Part shown: positions 46,314-54,763 of the stretch, in pieces
Position numbering within the stretch: position 1 is the stretch's first letter
Layout of the letters: every line of letters starts with the position of its first letter
Assembly (NCBI RefSeq): GCF_001968985.1
Contig: NZ_MOEN01000002.1
Location: 1 to 64,000 of the forward strand
Length of the DNA: 64,000 bases
DNA from: Desulfurobacterium indicum
GTDB lineage: Bacteria > Aquificota > Aquificia > Desulfurobacteriales > Desulfurobacteriaceae
Reading direction: 5' to 3'
Notes under the pieces: generated by a model
Database searches by the model: none
The model's input: the letters and a program-made list of their open reading frames with translations, nothing else
What the model was told of the DNA's origin: nothing
Made by a program: the position numbers and the translations under genes

Positions 46314-46778
46314 TTATTTAAAACTATATGAGACAGTAATTACTGGAAACGGTATAAAGTCGGCTCCGAAAAATTTGCTGAAGAAGTAAACACCTCCGCC
46401 TATGGAGAAAGCTCCGTTTTCTCCCGTAGGATCATCTCCGTTCGGAAGATCGTATTCTATTCCTCCGCCGAAATATGGGTAGATTATTGTTGCCGTTCCA
46501 CCTTCAAGGTAAGGATGAACTGCCTGCAATTCGTCGTTTACTGTAAAGTAATATCTGAAACCAAATCCTAGCCCTGCTGTTACACCGTAAAGATATTTAG
46601 GAGCTCCGTTACCGTCTCTTTCCAGCCTTCCTGCAAATATTGTGTCAAGGCCGACACGCCACTGATTTCCTGGTAGATTAATGGTGGTTTGTGTTTCGTT
46701 TTCGGCCGCATAACAGGTTGTGTATAGTGCAGACATGGCTATTAATGTGATAGCTCCTGTGATCAATGCTTTTTTCAT
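46314..46778 (-). CDS. Small outer-membrane beta-barrel-like protein, function unknown
   Basis: This protein has 154 residues. A signal peptide ends near CYA (residue 24). The mature part has alternating strands rich in Gly and aromatic residues (GVTAGLGFGFRYYFTV, HPYLEGGTATIIYPYFGGGI) and ends VITVSYSFK, with an aromatic near the C-terminus, all typical of small outer-membrane barrels. I do not recognise the family. GGGAGG precedes the ATG. It is the first gene of a pair with hemW and is divergent from ppsA. Confidence 0.7.
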   Translation of the reverse strand: MKKALITGAITLIAMSALYTTCYAAENETQTTINLPGNQWRVGLDTIFAGRLERDGNGAPKYLYGVTAGLGFGFRYYFTVNDELQAVHPYLEGGTATIIYPYFGGGIEYDLPNGDDPTGENGAFSIGGGVYFFSKFFGADFIPFPVITVSYSFK

Positions 46779-46814
46779 GATTCCTCCCGTTAAAATATTC
46801 AGTAAAAGTTATAA

Positions 46815-46842
46815 TTGCATTATAGGACTGTCATACTATAAA
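46815..46842 (+). promoter_or_regulatory. Possible promoter of ppsA
   Basis: TTGCAT (46815-46820) and TATAAA (46837-46842) are 16 bases apart in the 82-base divergent gap. Transcription would start near 46849, only about 12 bases before the start codon. Other AT-rich choices exist here. Confidence 0.35.
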
Positions 46843-46860
46843 TATGGGGGGTTTTTGAAA

Positions 46861-49287
46861 ATGGACAATAGAAATGTTCTCTGGTTAAGGGATGTAACTT
46901 TGAAAGATGTGCACCTGGTAGGAGGGAAAAACGCTTCTTTAGGAGAAATGCTTAACGTTCTTTCTTTTAAAGGAATAAATGTGCCGGATGGGTTTGTGGT
47001 AACGGCTAATGCCTACTTCAGATTTATCGATTTTAATAACCTTCGTGAAAAGATAGAAGAAGTGATAGCTTCCATAGATGTGAAAGATGTTGAGGATTTG
47101 CAGCGCAAAGCCGGTGTTATAAGAGCGCTTATTAGGGAGGGAAAGTTTCCTGAAAAAATGGAGAGGGAAATCCTTAGTTATTATCGAGCGCTTGGTGAGA
47201 AGTATAACATGGAGAATGTAGATGTTGCAGTACGTTCTTCTGCAACTGCTGAGGATCTTCCAGATGCCTCTTTTGCCGGACAACAGGATACTTACCTGAA
47301 TATAAAGGGGGAGTCTGCCCTCCTTGATGCAGTTAAAAGATGTTTTGCTTCATTATTTACCGCCAGGGCTATTTCTTATAGAGAAAGTTTTGGATTTGAT
47401 CATTTTAAAGTCGGAATTTCCGTAGGTATTCAAAAAATGGTTCGTTCTGATCTTGGTGCTTCTGGTGTTTGTTTCTCTCTCGATACAGAGACAGGATTTG
47501 AAAATGTTGTTTTGATAACAGGTATTTATGGGCTCGGAGAGTTGATTGTTGGTGGAGAAGTGGTTCCTGATGAATTTCTGGTATTTAAGCCGACTCTAAA
47601 GAAAGGATATAAAGCCATAATAGAAAAGAAGCTGGGAGATAAAGAGAAAAAGCTTATATATACCGATGACGGTGAAGGAACAGTAGTGGATATTGTTCCA
47701 GAGAAAGAGAGAGAAAAGTTTTGTCTTTCAGATGAAGAGGTTTTGAAGCTGGCTGACTGGGTTTTAAAAATAGAGGAGCATTATTCCAATCTTTACGGTC
47801 GCTGGTGTCCGATGGATGTTGAATGGGCAAAGGACGGGATAAGCGGGGAGTTATTCGTGGTCCAGGCTCGTCCTGAAACTGTTCAGTCAAGAAAAGATAG
47901 AAGTAAATTGACCGTGTATAAAATAGAGCTTTCTCCTGAAGAAAAAAATAAAAAATTACTTCTTAAAGGTACTGCTGTTGGAAGCAAGATAGCATCGGGA
48001 AAAGTGAGGAAGCTTTCCTCTCCGGAAAATGCATCTTCTTTTAATGAGGGTGAAATTCTTGTTGCTGAGATAACTGATCCTGATTGGGAACCTATAATGA
48101 AAAAAGCTGCAGCTATTATTACCGAAAGAGGCGGAAGAACCTGTCATGCTGCTATTGTTGCAAGGGAACTTGGTGTTCCTGCAGTTGTTGGAGCAAAAAG
48201 TGCCCTTGATGTCTTAGAGAATGGGCAAACTGTGACGGTTTCCTGCGCGGAAGGTAGTGACGGTTACGTTTATGAGGGGGCAGTTCCTTATTCGGTAGAA
48301 GAAGTTGATATCTCTGAAATTCCTGAGGTTAAGACTCCTATAATGTTTAATGTTGCTACTCCAGACAAAGCCTTTGAACTTTCGTTTTTGCCTAACGAAG
48401 GAGTAGGCCTTGCAAGGGAGGAATTCATAATAAATAACTATATAGGAATTCATCCCCTTGCGCTGATCCATTTTGATTTTATTGAAAAAGAGGATTCAGA
48501 AATTGCAGAGTTGATAAAAGAAAAGACATTCGGATATGACAATCCGGTCGATTACTATGTCGATAAACTTTCTTATGGTATTGCCAAAATTGCTGCGGCA
48601 TTTTATCCTAAGCCGGTAATAGTAAGATTTTCCGATTTTAAATCTAATGAGTACGCAAACCTTTTAGGTGGATCCCATTTTGAGCCTAAGGAAGAAAATC
48701 CTATGCTTGGTTGGAGGGGGGCTTCAAGATATTATTCTGAAAAATTTAAAGAGGCTTTTGGTCTGGAGTGCATTGCTATAAAACGTGTCAGGGAAGAGAT
48801 GGGACTTGACAATGTTATTGTTATGATTCCGTTTTGTCGCACTCCCGAAGAGGGCAAGAAAGTGCTGAATGTTATGGAAGAGTATGGCCTTGAGCGTGGC
48901 AAAAACAGCCTTAAAGTTTACGTTATGTGTGAAATTCCGTCCAATGTAATTTTAGCTGAGCAGTTTTCCGAAATCTTTGATGGCTTTTCAATAGGTTCGA
49001 ATGATCTGACACAGTTAACGCTTGGTCTTGACAGAGATTCCGAGCTTGTTGCTTCCATATATGATGAAAGGAACGATGCAGTTAAGTTTATGGTTGCCAC
49101 AGTTATAGATAAAGCCAAAAAGCTTGGACGAAAAGTGGGTATATGTGGACAGGCTCCTTCCGATTATCCTGAGTTTGCCGAATTTCTGGTGGAGAAAGGG
49201 ATAGATACAATTTCTATTAATCCTGATGCTCTTTTGAAAACAAGAAAGGCTGTGGCTGAAATAGAACGGAAACTGAAGCTGGATTAA
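46861..49287 (+). CDS. ppsA: Phosphoenolpyruvate synthase
   Basis: This enzyme makes PEP from pyruvate, ATP and water, feeding gluconeogenesis in autotrophs and organic-acid users. It has 808 residues. An N-terminal ATP-grasp part (LVGGKNASLGEML, then RSSATAEDLPDASFAGQQDTY) leads to the swivelling His domain (RGGRTCHAAIVARELGVPAV) and the C-terminal PEP/pyruvate barrel (GSNDLTQLTLGLDRD and ICGQAPSDYPEF with the catalytic Cys). I start at the ATG 46861. The frame is open 47 codons further upstream, but that stretch crosses the divergent gene and lacks a start site. Confidence 0.95.
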   Translation: MDNRNVLWLRDVTLKDVHLVGGKNASLGEMLNVLSFKGINVPDGFVVTANAYFRFIDFNNLREKIEEVIASIDVKDVEDLQRKAGVIRALIREGKFPEKMEREILSYYRALGEKYNMENVDVAVRSSATAEDLPDASFAGQQDTYLNIKGESALLDAVKRCFASLFTARAISYRESFGFDHFKVGISVGIQKMVRSDLGASGVCFSLDTETGFENVVLITGIYGLGELIVGGEVVPDEFLVFKPTLKKGYKAIIEKKLGDKEKKLIYTDDGEGTVVDIVPEKEREKFCLSDEEVLKLADWVLKIEEHYSNLYGRWCPMDVEWAKDGISGELFVVQARPETVQSRKDRSKLTVYKIELSPEEKNKKLLLKGTAVGSKIASGKVRKLSSPENASSFNEGEILVAEITDPDWEPIMKKAAAIITERGGRTCHAAIVARELGVPAVVGAKSALDVLENGQTVTVSCAEGSDGYVYEGAVPYSVEEVDISEIPEVKTPIMFNVATPDKAFELSFLPNEGVGLAREEFIINNYIGIHPLALIHFDFIEKEDSEIAELIKEKTFGYDNPVDYYVDKLSYGIAKIAAAFYPKPVIVRFSDFKSNEYANLLGGSHFEPKEENPMLGWRGASRYYSEKFKEAFGLECIAIKRVREEMGLDNVIVMIPFCRTPEEGKKVLNVMEEYGLERGKNSLKVYVMCEIPSNVILAEQFSEIFDGFSIGSNDLTQLTLGLDRDSELVASIYDERNDAVKFMVATVIDKAKKLGRKVGICGQAPSDYPEFAEFLVEKGIDTISINPDALLKTRKAVAEIERKLKLD

Positions 49288-49291
49288 TTTG

Positions 49292-49320
49292 ACAGGCGGG
49301 TAGCTCCCGCCTGTATTTTG
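49292..49320 (+). terminator. Terminator of ppsA
   Basis: The 9-bp stem ACAGGCGGG / CCCGCCTGT with a 5-base loop is followed by ATTTTG, right after the ppsA stop. It separates ppsA from the short ORF and secA, which therefore need their own promoter. Confidence 0.85.
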
Positions 49321-49344: not shown

Positions 49345-49373
49345 TTGACACTTCTCGTTTATTGGTGTATCTT
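49345..49373 (+). promoter_or_regulatory. Strong promoter of the short ORF and secA, near-leaderless
   Basis: A perfect TTGACA (49345-49350), a 17-base spacer and TATCTT (49368-49373) form one of the best sigma-70 type promoters in the window. The expected start (about 49380) is only two to four bases before the ATG at 49383, so the mRNA would be leaderless or nearly so. Confidence 0.7.
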
Positions 49374-49382
49374 TAAACCACC

Positions 49383-49679
49383 ATGAAAAAGTTCAGAATT
49401 AATACCATTATAGTTGGATTTATATTTTTAACAGTTTTTACCTGCGGTGAAACACCAGCAGAAGTCCTTTCTTCTGTTAACTTTTCCGTTGAGCAGATAG
49501 AGGTTGTTAATAACAAAAGAGATTTGAAAATTAAATCAGAAAAAAGTGTCTTTTTACCTATTAAGCAACTTTTCAAAGATTATAAAGAAAATTATGGTTT
49601 TTCAGATGTTTACACTCAGTTTTCTTTCTGTTCTTTTGCGATAAAATCCTTGCCTCCCAGAGCTTCTCCGCTTTCTTAA
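49383..49679 (+). CDS. Candidate SecM-like secretion monitor (arrest peptide)
   Basis: This is a 98-residue protein ending 54 bases before secA. The N-terminus is signal-like: MKKFR, then a hydrophobic core (INTIIVGFIFLTVFT) and a possible cleavage or lipid site near Cys21. The middle is charged and unremarkable. Residues 80-96 read FSFCSFAIKSLPPRASP. They align without gaps to the SecM arrest segment of E. coli (residues 150-166, motif FxxxxWIxxxxGIRAGP): F80 at F150, F85 at W155, and R93, A94 and P96 at R163, A164 and P166. The RAPP/RAPG-type arrest peptides reported in other bacteria share the same R-A core. I, G and G positions of SecM differ. The ATG is the only possible start and has no Shine-Dalgarno. 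Stalling itself is a prediction. Confidence 0.65.
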   Translation: MKKFRINTIIVGFIFLTVFTCGETPAEVLSSVNFSVEQIEVVNNKRDLKIKSEKSVFLPIKQLFKDYKENYGFSDVYTQFSFCSFAIKSLPPRASPLS

Positions 49680-49728
49680 TCAGGGTTTTCAGTTTTTAAC
49701 TTAAATCTTAAATGAAAAATCAGGAGGT
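49652..49728 (+). promoter_or_regulatory. Possible hairpin hiding the secA ribosome-binding site
   Basis: GCCTCC (49652-49657, within the codons for Leu90, Pro91 and Pro92 of the short ORF) can pair with GGAGGT (49723-49728), the secA Shine-Dalgarno, giving five Watson-Crick pairs plus one G-U. A ribosome stalled at Ser95-Pro96 would cover the left arm and free the site, as in the E. coli secM-secA mRNA. The stem is short and its loop long, so structure probing is required to confirm it. Confidence 0.45.
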
Positions 49729-49733
49729 TTTAA

Positions 49734-52322
49734 ATGATAGATATTGTCCTTACTAAGCTTTTTGGTAGCAAGAACGAAAGAGTTGTTAAAAAAATGAGGC
49801 CTATTGTTGAAAAGATAAACGCATTGGAGCCGGAATTTGAGAAGAAAAGTAAAGAAGAACTTCAAGCTCTTACGGCAAAGTGGAGAGAAGAGCTTTCAAA
49901 AATAAAAGATGCGAAAGAGCAATTTAAGTATATGGATAAGATTTTACCTGAAGCTTTTGCAGCAGTTCGTGAGGCAGCAAAAAGAACTTTAGGTATGAGA
50001 CATTATGATGTTCAGCTTATAGGTGGTATGGTCCTTCATCAGGGGAAGGTTGCCGAAATGAAAACAGGTGAAGGGAAGACCCTTGTTGCTACGCTTCCTG
50101 TATATTTAAATGCACTTGCCGGAAGAGGCGTTCACGTTGTTACAGTTAACGATTACCTTGCCAAGAGAGATGCCGAATGGATGGGACCTGTTTATAACTA
50201 TCTCGGTATAACGGTTGGCTATCTCCAGAACAATATGGAGAAACCGGAAAGAAAAGAGATGTATATGAAAGATGTAACTTATGGAACGAACAGTGAGTTT
50301 GGATTTGATTATCTCCGTGATAACATGGCGTTTTCAAAAGATGAGAGAGTACAGAGGGATCTTTTTTATGCGATAGTTGACGAGGCAGATTCTATTCTTA
50401 TTGATGAGGCTAGGACGCCGCTTATTATTTCTGGACCTTCAGAAGAAAATGTCGATATCTATTACATAGCAGATTCTATTGTTAGACAGCTGAAAAAAGA
50501 AAAACATTTTACGGTTGATGAGAAAAACAAGACAGCTGTTTTAACCGATGAAGGAATCAGGGAAGTTGAAAAGATAGTTAGTAAAATGACGGATATAAAG
50601 GACTTTAACCTTTATGACCCTAAATTTGCCGATCTTCTTCACGGTATTATCCAGTCTTTGAGAGCTCATCATTTGTTCAAAAGAGATGTGGATTATGTTG
50701 TAAAAGATGGGAAGGTGATCATAGTTGATGAATTTACTGGAAGAATAATGCCGGGGAGACGCTGGAGCGATGGACTCCATCAGGCGGTAGAAGCGAAAGA
50801 GAAAGTAAAAATAGAAGCAGAAAACCAGACACTTGCGACTATAACCATTCAAAACTATTTCCGTCTATATAAAAAACTTGCCGGAATGACGGGAACTGCC
50901 GAAACGGAAGCGGCTGAACTTAAAGAAATCTATGGACTTGATGTTGTTGTTATTCCGACTAATAAGCCTGTTATAAGAAAAGATCATCCGGATGTTATTT
51001 ACAAGACAATGAAAGCCAAGTATGATGCTGTTGTTAAGGAAATTGAGAAGAACTATAAAGTGGGAAGACCTGTTCTTGTTGGGACCAACTCTATTGAGGC
51101 TTCTGAGTATCTTTCAATGCTATTAAAGAAAAAGGGTATTCCTCACAACGTTCTTAATGCCAAGTATCATGAAAGAGAAGCCGAAATCGTTGCTCAAGCG
51201 GGGCGGCTCGGAGCTGTTACGATAGCTACAAACATGGCTGGTCGTGGAACGGATATTCTGCTTGGTGGTAATCCGGAATACATGGCAAAACAGGAGCTTA
51301 AAAAGCGTGGAATAACGCCAGAGAAAGTCGGTGAAGAGAAATATGAAGAGCTGCTAAAAGAAGAGACGGAAAAATTCAGAAAAATAACGGAAGAAGAAAA
51401 GAAAAAGGTAATAGAACTTGGCGGACTTTATATTATTGGAACGGAGAGAAACGAAGCTCGCCGTATAGATAACCAGTTAAGAGGTCGTGCAGGAAGACAG
51501 GGAGACCCGGGAGAATCAAGATTTTTCCTTTCTCTTGAAGATGATCTTTTAAGGTTGTTTGGTTCTGACAGAATTAAGAAATTAATGGAAATGATGAATG
51601 TTCCCGATGATGAGCCTATAACTCACAAGATGGTTTCAAAGGCTCTTGAAAATGCCCAGAAACGTGTTGAAGATCAGAACTTCCAGATAAGAAAGAGGCT
51701 TTTAGAGTATGACGAAGTTTACAACGTTCAGAGGAAGGTAATCTATGAGCAGAGAAACAAGCTCCTTGACGGAGAAGATTTCAAAGAGGATATTCTCTAT
51801 ATGATTGAAGAAGTTGTCTGGAAGCTTATAGATCTTTATGCTCCTGAAAATATTGTTCCTGACGAGTGGGATTTTGAAGGTTTGAAAAAGGCGCTGGAAT
51901 TACGTTTCGGCCTTGAATTTGTTATTCCGTCATCATTTAAAGAGCTTATGGAAATGAAGGTTGAGGGGGCGGTTGACGAGAGAGATAAGCTGTTCCATCT
52001 GATCTATGACAGGCTCGTTAAAGAGTATGAGGAAAAAGAGAAACTTATAGGTAGCCAGCAACTCAGAGAAATAGAAAGGCTAATAATGCTTCAAACGCTT
52101 GATCATTACTGGAGACAACACCTGAGGGCTCTTGATCACATCAAGGAGAGTATCGGATGGAGAGGATATGCTCAGAAAGATCCGATTGTTGAATTCAAGA
52201 AAGAGGCGTTTATCCTGTTTGAGGAGCTTATTTCTAACATAGAGGATGCTACGGTTGACGGTATATTTAACTACTTCAAATATGTGGAAAGCCAAATGGA
52301 GCAAAATGAAAATAAGGCCTGA
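49734..52322 (+). CDS. secA: Protein translocase ATPase SecA
   Basis: This is the motor that drives secreted proteins through SecYEG. It has 862 residues. Motifs seen: MRHYDVQLIGGMVLHQGKVA, Walker A MKTGEGKT, VDEADSILIDEARTPL (DEAD), VKDGKVIIVDEFTGRIMPGR, TNMAGRGTDI, and RGRAGRQGDPGESRFFLSLE of nucleotide-binding fold 2. The scaffold and wing domains and a two-helix finger (around residue 780) follow. It ends at YFKYVESQMEQNENKA and lacks the C-terminal Cys-rich zinc tail that binds SecB in many bacteria. It has a strong AGGAGG at 49722. Confidence 0.96.
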   Translation: MIDIVLTKLFGSKNERVVKKMRPIVEKINALEPEFEKKSKEELQALTAKWREELSKIKDAKEQFKYMDKILPEAFAAVREAAKRTLGMRHYDVQLIGGMVLHQGKVAEMKTGEGKTLVATLPVYLNALAGRGVHVVTVNDYLAKRDAEWMGPVYNYLGITVGYLQNNMEKPERKEMYMKDVTYGTNSEFGFDYLRDNMAFSKDERVQRDLFYAIVDEADSILIDEARTPLIISGPSEENVDIYYIADSIVRQLKKEKHFTVDEKNKTAVLTDEGIREVEKIVSKMTDIKDFNLYDPKFADLLHGIIQSLRAHHLFKRDVDYVVKDGKVIIVDEFTGRIMPGRRWSDGLHQAVEAKEKVKIEAENQTLATITIQNYFRLYKKLAGMTGTAETEAAELKEIYGLDVVVIPTNKPVIRKDHPDVIYKTMKAKYDAVVKEIEKNYKVGRPVLVGTNSIEASEYLSMLLKKKGIPHNVLNAKYHEREAEIVAQAGRLGAVTIATNMAGRGTDILLGGNPEYMAKQELKKRGITPEKVGEEKYEELLKEETEKFRKITEEEKKKVIELGGLYIIGTERNEARRIDNQLRGRAGRQGDPGESRFFLSLEDDLLRLFGSDRIKKLMEMMNVPDDEPITHKMVSKALENAQKRVEDQNFQIRKRLLEYDEVYNVQRKVIYEQRNKLLDGEDFKEDILYMIEEVVWKLIDLYAPENIVPDEWDFEGLKKALELRFGLEFVIPSSFKELMEMKVEGAVDERDKLFHLIYDRLVKEYEEKEKLIGSQQLREIERLIMLQTLDHYWRQHLRALDHIKESIGWRGYAQKDPIVEFKKEAFILFEELISNIEDATVDGIFNYFKYVESQMEQNENKA

Positions 52323-52347: not shown

Positions 52348-52397
52348 AAAACTGTTAATTTATGTTATGGTTAATGTGGGTTAAGGGAGGGAAAATG

Positions 52398-53276
52398 ATG
52401 AGGAAATTAATGCTAACGGTGGCTTTACTCGTTCTGCCAGTAGCTGCAAGGGCAGATTTATATATAGTGAAAAGAGGCGATTCCCTCTATAAAATAGCCC
52501 GCAAATATCACACAAGTGTTGAGACGATAAGACGTCTAAACGGTATAAGGGGAAAACTTTTAAGACCCGGCCAGCGATTAATTGTTCCCGGAAGAAGTCG
52601 ATTTGCGAAGCCAAGGAAAAGTGTTGCTACTATTAACTTGCTTGAGAATGAAGCGAAAGAGCTTTCTACGGAAGTTTCAGAGAAAGATCAGGCTATAAAA
52701 ACGCTTTCCGAACTTAATTCCCAAGATATCTATTCCATAACTGATACAATAGAAACGGAATCAGAACTTCTGTCAGATGCAATATCAACGCCTCTTAATG
52801 TTTCTTATGATAACTGGAGTCTTTCTATTTTAAATCTTCCTCAGTATAAAAGTTCTTTGCTAAAGATACTGGCGAGCATATTTAAACGTTACAAGAATAC
52901 ACCTTACGTATTTGGATACAACAATCCAGCTATGGGGCTTGATTGTTCTTCTTTTACCATGAGAGTTTACAGAAAATTGGGAATTCATCTTCCGCGGACT
53001 GCGCGAGGGCAGTTTAACGTAGGAGTGCCTGTTGATAGGGAGCATTTGAAAGTTGGTGATCTGGTATTTTTCAGAACTTATGCAAGATTTCCTTCCCACG
53101 TTGGTATTTATATAGGTGACGGAAAGTTTGTCCATTTTTCATCCTCAAACCATGGTCTTGCTATTTCTTCTCTTAATAGCAGATATTTCAGGAGAAGATT
53201 TATCGGAGCCAAGAGAGTGTTAAGTGAGAAAAAAGTGAGAGAGGTGGTGGCAAAGTTAAAAGGAAGTTTACGATAA
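52398..53276 (+). CDS. Secreted LysM and NlpC/P60 peptidoglycan hydrolase
   Basis: This is a cell-wall endopeptidase of 292 residues. A signal peptide (MRKLMLTVALLVLPVAARA) leads to a LysM domain (LYIVKRGDSLYKIARKYHTS, residues 21-64). A linker of about 70 residues with acidic and Ser/Thr content follows, then a C-terminal NlpC/P60 domain. Catalytic Cys in GLDCSSFTMRVYRKLG, His in PSHVGIYIGDG and a later polar residue (FVHFSSSNHG) make the triad. I start at the second of two adjacent ATG codons, seven bases after GGAGG; the first is three bases earlier. The upstream frame from 52362 has no site. Confidence 0.88.
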   Translation: MRKLMLTVALLVLPVAARADLYIVKRGDSLYKIARKYHTSVETIRRLNGIRGKLLRPGQRLIVPGRSRFAKPRKSVATINLLENEAKELSTEVSEKDQAIKTLSELNSQDIYSITDTIETESELLSDAISTPLNVSYDNWSLSILNLPQYKSSLLKILASIFKRYKNTPYVFGYNNPAMGLDCSSFTMRVYRKLGIHLPRTARGQFNVGVPVDREHLKVGDLVFFRTYARFPSHVGIYIGDGKFVHFSSSNHGLAISSLNSRYFRRRFIGAKRVLSEKKVREVVAKLKGSLR

Positions 53277-53323
53277 ACTGCAGGATAAAAACAATAAAAA
53301 CACTGCAAAAAAGGAGGTAAGCG

Positions 53324-54763
53324 ATGAACACAAGACAGCTCTTAAAAGTGGCAGTTTTGACTACCGTTGCAGCAGTATCTTTCTCAATGCCGGTAAAGGC
53401 ACAGGTTAATGTAACACCGGAAGATTATAGGGTAGCTCTTTCTCTTCAGAAGGTTATTGAATCTGTGGCAGAGAAAGTAAGACCTGCAGTTGTCGATATT
53501 ACATCTGTATCAACTGTTAAGTTCCAGCATCCTGCTATTCCGCCTGAGTTCAGGGATTTTTTCAGACAGTTCGGCTTTCCTATGCCTCAGTTTCCCGATA
53601 TGCCGAAAGAGTTTGAAAGGAAATCTCTAGGTTCAGGGTTCATAGTGAAGGTTAAGAATGGCTGGGCTTACATTTTAACCAACAATCATGTTATAGATAA
53701 GGCCAAAAAAATCCGTGTAAAACTTTACAACGGAGATGTTTATACCGCAAAGGTTGTCGGTGCTGATCCAAAAACGGATGTTGCCCTTATAAAGATTAAA
53801 GTCGGCAACAAAAAGGTTCCTGTCGCAAAGCTCGGAGATTCTGACAAAATAAAAATAGGAGAACTTGTTATTGCTATAGGTAACCCTTATAGATTAGATG
53901 GTTCTGTGACTCATGGAATTATTTCCGCAAAAGGAAGACATGGCCTTGGATTGAATCCGATAGAGAACTTCATACAGACAGACGCTGCAATTAATCCCGG
54001 TAACAGCGGAGGACCTCTCTGCGATATTTACGGTAACGTTATAGGTATTAACACTGCTATAGTTAGAAATGCTCAGGGCCTTGGTTTTGCAGTGCCTATA
54101 AACATAGCGAAGAAAGTTATGCATGATCTTCTTAAATATGGTAAAGTTATAAGGGGATGGCTGGGGGTTTATATTGAAGATGTTTCTCCTGATGTTGCAG
54201 CTAAGTTCGGTATAAAATCAGGAGTTATTGTTACCAAAGTTATAAAGGGGAGCCCTGCTTCAAAAGCCGGGCTGAAGAGCGGTGATATAATCGTTACTTA
54301 TAATGGTGAGCAGGTAAAGGGAGTTTCTGATCTTCAGCTTAAGGTTGTTAATACAAGGCCCGGTGATAGGGTTAGACTTGGCATAATCAGAAACGGAGAG
54401 AGAGAAACTATCACAGTTAAAATAGGACAGATGCCTCAGCATGAGATGATTGCTGATGCACTATCAACGCTTGGCCTTTCCGTTCAAAAGCTGACTCCTG
54501 AGCTGAAACAAAAGCTCGGTATTCCTGAGAATATTTCAGGGCTTGTAGTAACAGATATTAAGCCCGGTTCACCGGCCGATGATGCGGGATTGCAGGAAGG
54601 AGATGTTATCGTCAGTGCCGGAACAAAACCTCAAAATCTTAAGCCTGTGAAAAGCGTTGAGGCTTTTGCAAAGCTTGTTGAAAAAGCCAAAGATAGCGGT
54701 GTTTTGTTGAAAGTTTACAGAAACGGGTTCTCTTTCTTTGTTGTTTTGAAAGCTGAAGAATAA
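53324..54763 (+). CDS. degP: DegP/HtrA-type periplasmic serine protease
   Basis: This is an envelope quality-control protease and chaperone of 479 residues. A signal peptide ends near VKAQ (residue 26). The trypsin-like triad is His122 (NNHVID), Asp152 (TDVALIK) and Ser228 (GNSGGP). Two PDZ domains follow: the first at about residues 275-370, the second from about 395 to the end. The loop before the protease is rich in Pro and Phe, as in DegQ/MucD-type proteins. AAGGAGG precedes the ATG. It lies next to secA and a cell-wall hydrolase, in a secretion and envelope block. Confidence 0.93.
   Translation: MNTRQLLKVAVLTTVAAVSFSMPVKAQVNVTPEDYRVALSLQKVIESVAEKVRPAVVDITSVSTVKFQHPAIPPEFRDFFRQFGFPMPQFPDMPKEFERKSLGSGFIVKVKNGWAYILTNNHVIDKAKKIRVKLYNGDVYTAKVVGADPKTDVALIKIKVGNKKVPVAKLGDSDKIKIGELVIAIGNPYRLDGSVTHGIISAKGRHGLGLNPIENFIQTDAAINPGNSGGPLCDIYGNVIGINTAIVRNAQGLGFAVPINIAKKVMHDLLKYGKVIRGWLGVYIEDVSPDVAAKFGIKSGVIVTKVIKGSPASKAGLKSGDIIVTYNGEQVKGVSDLQLKVVNTRPGDRVRLGIIRNGERETITVKIGQMPQHEMIADALSTLGLSVQKLTPELKQKLGIPENISGLVVTDIKPGSPADDAGLQEGDVIVSAGTKPQNLKPVKSVEAFAKLVEKAKDSGVLLKVYRNGFSFFVVLKAEE

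Follow-up and report, generated by a model that had tools for sequence, protein, structure and literature searches.

A probable RAPP-like arrest peptide encoded ahead of secA in Desulfurobacterium indicum and its family

Several described arrest peptides resemble the product of the short upstream open reading frame (uORF) that precedes secA in Desulfurobacterium indicum. SecM of Escherichia coli and its relatives is a signal-bearing peptide that is likewise encoded before secA with an R-A-x-P end, and the likeness would extend to a stall at the third motif residue and to release of the secA Shine-Dalgarno sequence. SecM is 170 residues long, whereas the uORF encodes 98 and is probably leaderless. 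The Pasteurellaceae form of SecM, as in Mannheimia, ends in RGSP and shares Ser at the third motif position, but its second residue is Gly rather than the Ala found here and it belongs to the gammaproteobacterial SecM lineage; its stalling has been shown experimentally, as related in PMC10987492. ApdP, ApdA, and ApcA (RAPP and RAPG) come from other phyla. Their R-A-P-P recurs in two relatives of the present organism (G002 and G003), for which the same register is expected, whereas most Desulfurobacteriaceae have Ser as the third residue.

The closest described group comes from a screen of 30,175 genomes (PMC10987492; Nat Commun 2024, 15:2711), in which RASP was one of the query motifs. There, the RAPP-like uORFs before secA in the order Desulfurobacteriales are named uA_RQH_Desulfurobacteriales, and the peptide is reported to stall B. 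subtilis ribosomes efficiently and those of E. coli weakly in vitro, with low arrest indices in vivo in both species. In toeprints of RQH peptides, the P site holds residue three of the motif (R/Q/H)-(A/G/D)-(P/G/S)-(P/G). This published summary motif permits Ser at position 3, as in RASP, and the Discussion of the paper leaves the Desulfurobacteriales peptide out of the di-proline motif members, which fits a RASP end. The uORF analyzed here comes from the same order, occupies the same site before secA, and has a signal-like N-terminus and a C-terminal RAPP-like motif; from order, position, and motif, it is almost certainly a member of the group. An arrest peptide before secA in Desulfurobacteriales is already known, described and tested in 2024, and the view of the initial annotation that such a peptide would be new in Aquificota has been overtaken by that work. 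Its other suggestion, convergence, is in line with the view favored in PMC10987492 for RAPP-like peptides in general. The new points are small: a probable leaderless start, arrest codons that serve two purposes in one genus, and a single RASP-to-RAPP change. In the main text of PMC10987492, a leaderless promoter, Shine-Dalgarno pairing of this group, and the RASP-to-RAPP switch were not found.

The window, meaning the whole stretch of DNA that was analyzed, covers positions 1 to 64,000 of contig NZ_MOEN01000002.1. The features around the start of secA are as follows.

49292-49314, forward strand: inverted repeat ACAGGCGGG-TAGCT-CCCGCCTGT, read in the sequence
49345-49373, forward strand: promoter TTGACA-N17-TATCTT, with 9 nt separating its second hexamer from the ATG of the uORF
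49383-49679, forward strand: uORF for the putative arrest peptide, 98 aa, ATG to TAA
49383-49448, forward strand: residues 1-22, signal-like or membrane-targeting segment, consensus M[KR]LKKLIxGIxFITAxxCG
49449-49649, forward strand: residues 23-89, hypervariable spacer, from codon differences to a sister genome
49650-49670, forward strand: putative arrest end L90-P-P-R93-A94-S95-P96, from conservation, with the register taken from the RQH toeprints (PMC10987492)
49652-49657, forward strand: GCCUCC, anti-Shine-Dalgarno stretch within the arrest codons, from a duplex computation
49722-49727, forward strand: AGGAGG, Shine-Dalgarno sequence of secA, read in the sequence
49734-52322, forward strand: secA, 862 aa, with SecA found in 60 of 61 genomes

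The full product of the uORF is MKKFRINTIIVGFIFLTVFTCGETPAEVLSSVNFSVEQIEVVNNKRDLKIKSEKSVFLPIKQLFKDYKENYGFSDVYTQFSFCSFAIKSLPPRASPLS. Its N-terminus, MKKFRINTIIVGFIFLTVFTC, is basic and then hydrophobic, and its C-terminal end is FSFCSFAIKSLPPRASPLS, followed by the stop codon. From that stop to the secA ATG (49734), the gap is 54 nt, and the short ORF with a signal-like start proposed at this distance from secA exists as the initial annotation described it (49383-49679). By analogy with the RQH toeprints, the ribosome is predicted to stall with the codon for S95 (49665-49667) occupying the P site and P96 the A site. About 73 residues lie between the end of the signal and this site, in keeping with the spacer of more than 30 residues expected of the RQH group. 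Searches of the window uORF against Pfam and NCBIfam gave no match.

Ahead of the unit lies a phosphoenolpyruvate synthase/pyruvate dikinase-like gene (46720-49287), and the strong inverted repeat at 49292-49314 is its probable terminator, separating that gene from the uORF-secA unit. A consensus scanner did not list the repeat, probably because of its short T-run; a similar inverted repeat occurs at the same place in locus L003. Following secA, at 52362-54763, translations read as a LysM/NlpC-type protein and then a DegP/DegQ-like PDZ protease; the two make up an envelope-quality group adjoining the putative export sensor.

Conservation was assessed in the family Desulfurobacteriaceae (order Desulfurobacteriales, phylum Aquificota), represented by the window genome and 21 others collected by a SecA search. 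Family uORFs have 84-100 codons, stop 46-78 bases ahead of secA, and lie directly upstream of it wherever the region is assembled. The basic-hydrophobic N-terminus is kept across 17 relatives in sequence comparison. Counts at the C-terminus use the 18 genomes with an assembled ORF end, including G019, whose contig begins inside the uORF and leaves the end alone visible. In all 18, the R, A, and last P of R-A-(S/P)-P are invariant, a constancy well above anything chance would give; the third residue is Ser in 16 and Pro in two. The ends read PPRASP, replaced by PSRASP in one genome and by PTRASP in another, or else SRAPP, and 0-4 further residues come after them. A weaker family extension ahead of RASP, RFxSxPP, aligns differently to SecM.

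The conservation is of residues. Five synonymous codons (AGA, AGG, CGT, CGA, CGC) serve for R across the family, and all four GCN and all four CCN codons for A and P. Over 153 genome pairs, all 292 differences at the R, A, and P codons are synonymous and none is nonsynonymous, and codons 5 to 20 upstream of R differ mostly nonsynonymously. Comparison with the sister genome G001 (SecA identity 97%) gives the same picture within the window uORF: seven of the eight codons of LPPRASPL are changed, with seven synonymous and no nonsynonymous differences, and the first 22 codons show five synonymous and no nonsynonymous differences. The middle, which cannot be aligned among family members, has 53 codon changes, 12 synonymous and 41 nonsynonymous (end against middle, Fisher p 1.3e-4). 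Selection acts on the peptide and only at its two ends, with the signature expected of a monitoring arrest peptide. One refutation offered by the initial annotation was that close relatives would fail to conserve the end of the ORF; with R, A, and P kept in 18 of 18 genomes, the idea survived this comparison.

A search profile built from 17 uORF members matches in 18 of the 22 family genomes and, among 114 other Aquificota genomes, gives no convincing match. The matches in other Aquificota families are weak, the best (6.9e-4) falling inside a 390-codon frame. Of the four family genomes with no match, G012 has no secA that could be found, and G015 and G021 contain only the 3' part of secA, starting at a contig end. 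G010 (L007) does have secA, preceded by a different sequence that lacks the arrest ORF and its promoter; a relocated copy was not found there in a search that lacked its own positive control, though it used the profile that finds 18 genomes. The Shine-Dalgarno sequence of secA in G010 is GGGGG rather than GGAGG. The sister-family member G022 also has secA without the uORF. Across the order, 15 loci before secD and 16 before yidC were surveyed for RAPP-like uORFs with nothing convincing, and an RSSP match in L060 was attributed to chance.

The RAPP end is confined to G002 and G003 (L004, L005), two species of a genus that otherwise has RASP. In the SecA tree these two genomes group together with support of 95/91. 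Because they do so inside a RASP genus, the simplest account is that RASP changed to RAPP once, within Desulfurobacterium.

The uORF appears to have its own promoter, a perfect or near-perfect match to the sigma-70 type. TTGACA-N17-TANNNT, with the second hexamer 6-9 nt from the ATG, is present in 12 of 17 relatives, of which 11 have a perfect TTGACA and all have a spacer of 17 nt; it is carried by the window locus and by L003-L006, L008-L011, L013, L015, and L020. Other ATGs have TANNNT ahead of them at the same spacing in 8.5% of cases, and nearby positions in 10.6% (binomial p 8e-9 for the enrichment, not corrected for relatedness). The usual distance from the second hexamer to the transcript start is 6-8 bases. 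With the hexamer 9 nt from the ATG, the transcript would therefore begin within about 3 nt of the ATG. No Shine-Dalgarno sequence is present ahead of the uORF, which is probably leaderless, while that of secA is a strong AGGAGG. Four fully assembled members of genus g7 (L014, L017, L018, L019) are without a uORF promoter of their own, and their uORF starts at, or a few bases past, the stop of a metallo-beta-lactamase-like gene; G007 likewise lacks the promoter.

The codons of the arrest end may have a second use. In folding computations, the secA Shine-Dalgarno sequence of most relatives pairs with these codons and becomes freer once the footprint of a stalled ribosome is imposed. The pairing is strong in g7 and in several others. 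In g7 the stem can have as many as 14 pairs (GGCUUCACCU... with ...AGGUGAAGCC), and four of five members beat about 99% of synonymous recodings, the fifth 96%. By eye, one pair in this stem is compensatory, G-C in G014, G020, and G009 versus A-U in G019 and G017, and a second is A-U versus C-G in G009. The g7 stem extends almost to the secA start codon. Combining the synonymous shuffles gives p = 3e-6, a value overstated by the relatedness of the genomes, and the per-genus pattern is relied on instead. In the window, the pairing probability of the Shine-Dalgarno sequence with the arrest end rises from 0.11 at 37 C to 0.51 at 65 C. The pairing is not better than chance against synonymous shuffles (fraction 0.32), and the opening under the stalled-ribosome footprint is small, from 0.22 to 0.29 at 65 C. 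For the window genome, the hiding step is thus inferred. A search for known RNA elements at the locus returned one sub-threshold, meaningless microRNA match.

Taken together, the product of the uORF is very probably a RAPP-like (RQH) arrest peptide that monitors Sec, in the Desulfurobacteriaceae form with an R-A-S-P end, and it would control secA. Transcription would start at a promoter belonging to the uORF and leave almost no 5' leader. The ribosome would make the N-terminal signal first, and the hypervariable spacer would let the signal leave the tunnel. When the chain reaches R-A-S, so that Ser occupies the P site and Pro-tRNA the A site, peptide bond formation would stall at S95. Engagement of the signal by Sec would then pull on the chain and free the stall so that translation finishes, after which refolding of the mRNA would bring the codons of the arrest end into pairing with the Shine-Dalgarno sequence of secA. 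Slow export would leave the stalled ribosome masking the arrest codons and the Shine-Dalgarno sequence free, and more SecA would presumably be made.

Three other explanations bear on the same evidence. The uORF could encode an ordinary small secreted or membrane peptide whose conserved end serves another role, such as a binding tail, and does not stall ribosomes. A conserved signal segment and a conserved tail would suit such a peptide, as would the weak arrest in heterologous hosts in vivo. Its spacer, however, is free in sequence and somewhat in length, its tail is exactly a known stall motif placed 0-4 codons from the stop, and it always lies before secA in a group for which stalling has been measured in vitro, so this explanation is quite unlikely. 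Slightly less probable again is control by RNA only, in which the 3' end of the ORF is kept as a Shine-Dalgarno-hiding arm with ordinary translational coupling and the peptide has no effect. The pairing of the arrest-end codons with the Shine-Dalgarno region in most relatives speaks for it, but the R, A, and P codons vary among synonyms, including AGR to CGN, with residues that never change, and several members, the window included, have RASP but pair only weakly.

Common descent with SecM, sharing its FxxxxWIxxxxGIRAGP arrest motif, would also account for the place before secA, the N-terminal signal, and the R-A-x-P end, and the window sequence happens to carry F and F in register. The initial annotation matched the whole motif in register; of that match, only the R, A, and P of R-A-x-P are shared, and the F150 and aromatic-155 positions are not conserved. 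F stands at -13 from R in one of 18 genomes and F or Y at -8 in four, the columns otherwise holding T, S, L, H, N, and others, so the aromatic register is attributed to chance and not to a common feature. The family lacks F150, W155, I156, G161, I162, and G165 of SecM and has no detectable homology to it. Similarity is limited to four residues in a different phylum, the uORFs have 84-100 aa rather than 170, and no SecM model appeared among the Pfam or NCBIfam hits at E up to 1. Common descent is the most improbable of these explanations, and judged from sequence the peptide appears to work like SecM and not to be a SecM homologue.

An RQH-type arrest peptide thus remains the preferred reading. 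Its basis in these genomes is conservation, protein-level selection, promoter position, and pairing potential in relatives; stalling itself is carried over from the in vitro work on uA_RQH_Desulfurobacteriales reported in PMC10987492. The suggestion that an arrest peptide before secA works here as SecM does is well supported by this conservation together with the published stalling of the order-level group. Counting against the preferred reading are the low in vivo indices in both hosts and the weak stalling in E. coli, all with heterologous ribosomes, as well as a window pairing no better than chance and the secA of G010, which has no uORF. The fuller account, that of a leaderless Sec monitor whose arrest codons are both stall code and Shine-Dalgarno-hiding arm, with RASP ancestral and one change to RAPP in Desulfurobacterium, stands a little above an even chance. 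If true, the secA message would start directly with the sensor peptide, which would make up all of its 5' end.

For the biology of the family, the locus confirms that control of secA in a thermophilic lineage of Aquificota probably runs through a nascent-peptide sensor. The 18 genomes form a clean comparative case in which the signal and the last few residues alone are kept. Within one genus, they also offer a natural RASP-to-RAPP pair, together with a probably leaderless arrest ORF, both testable with native ribosomes.
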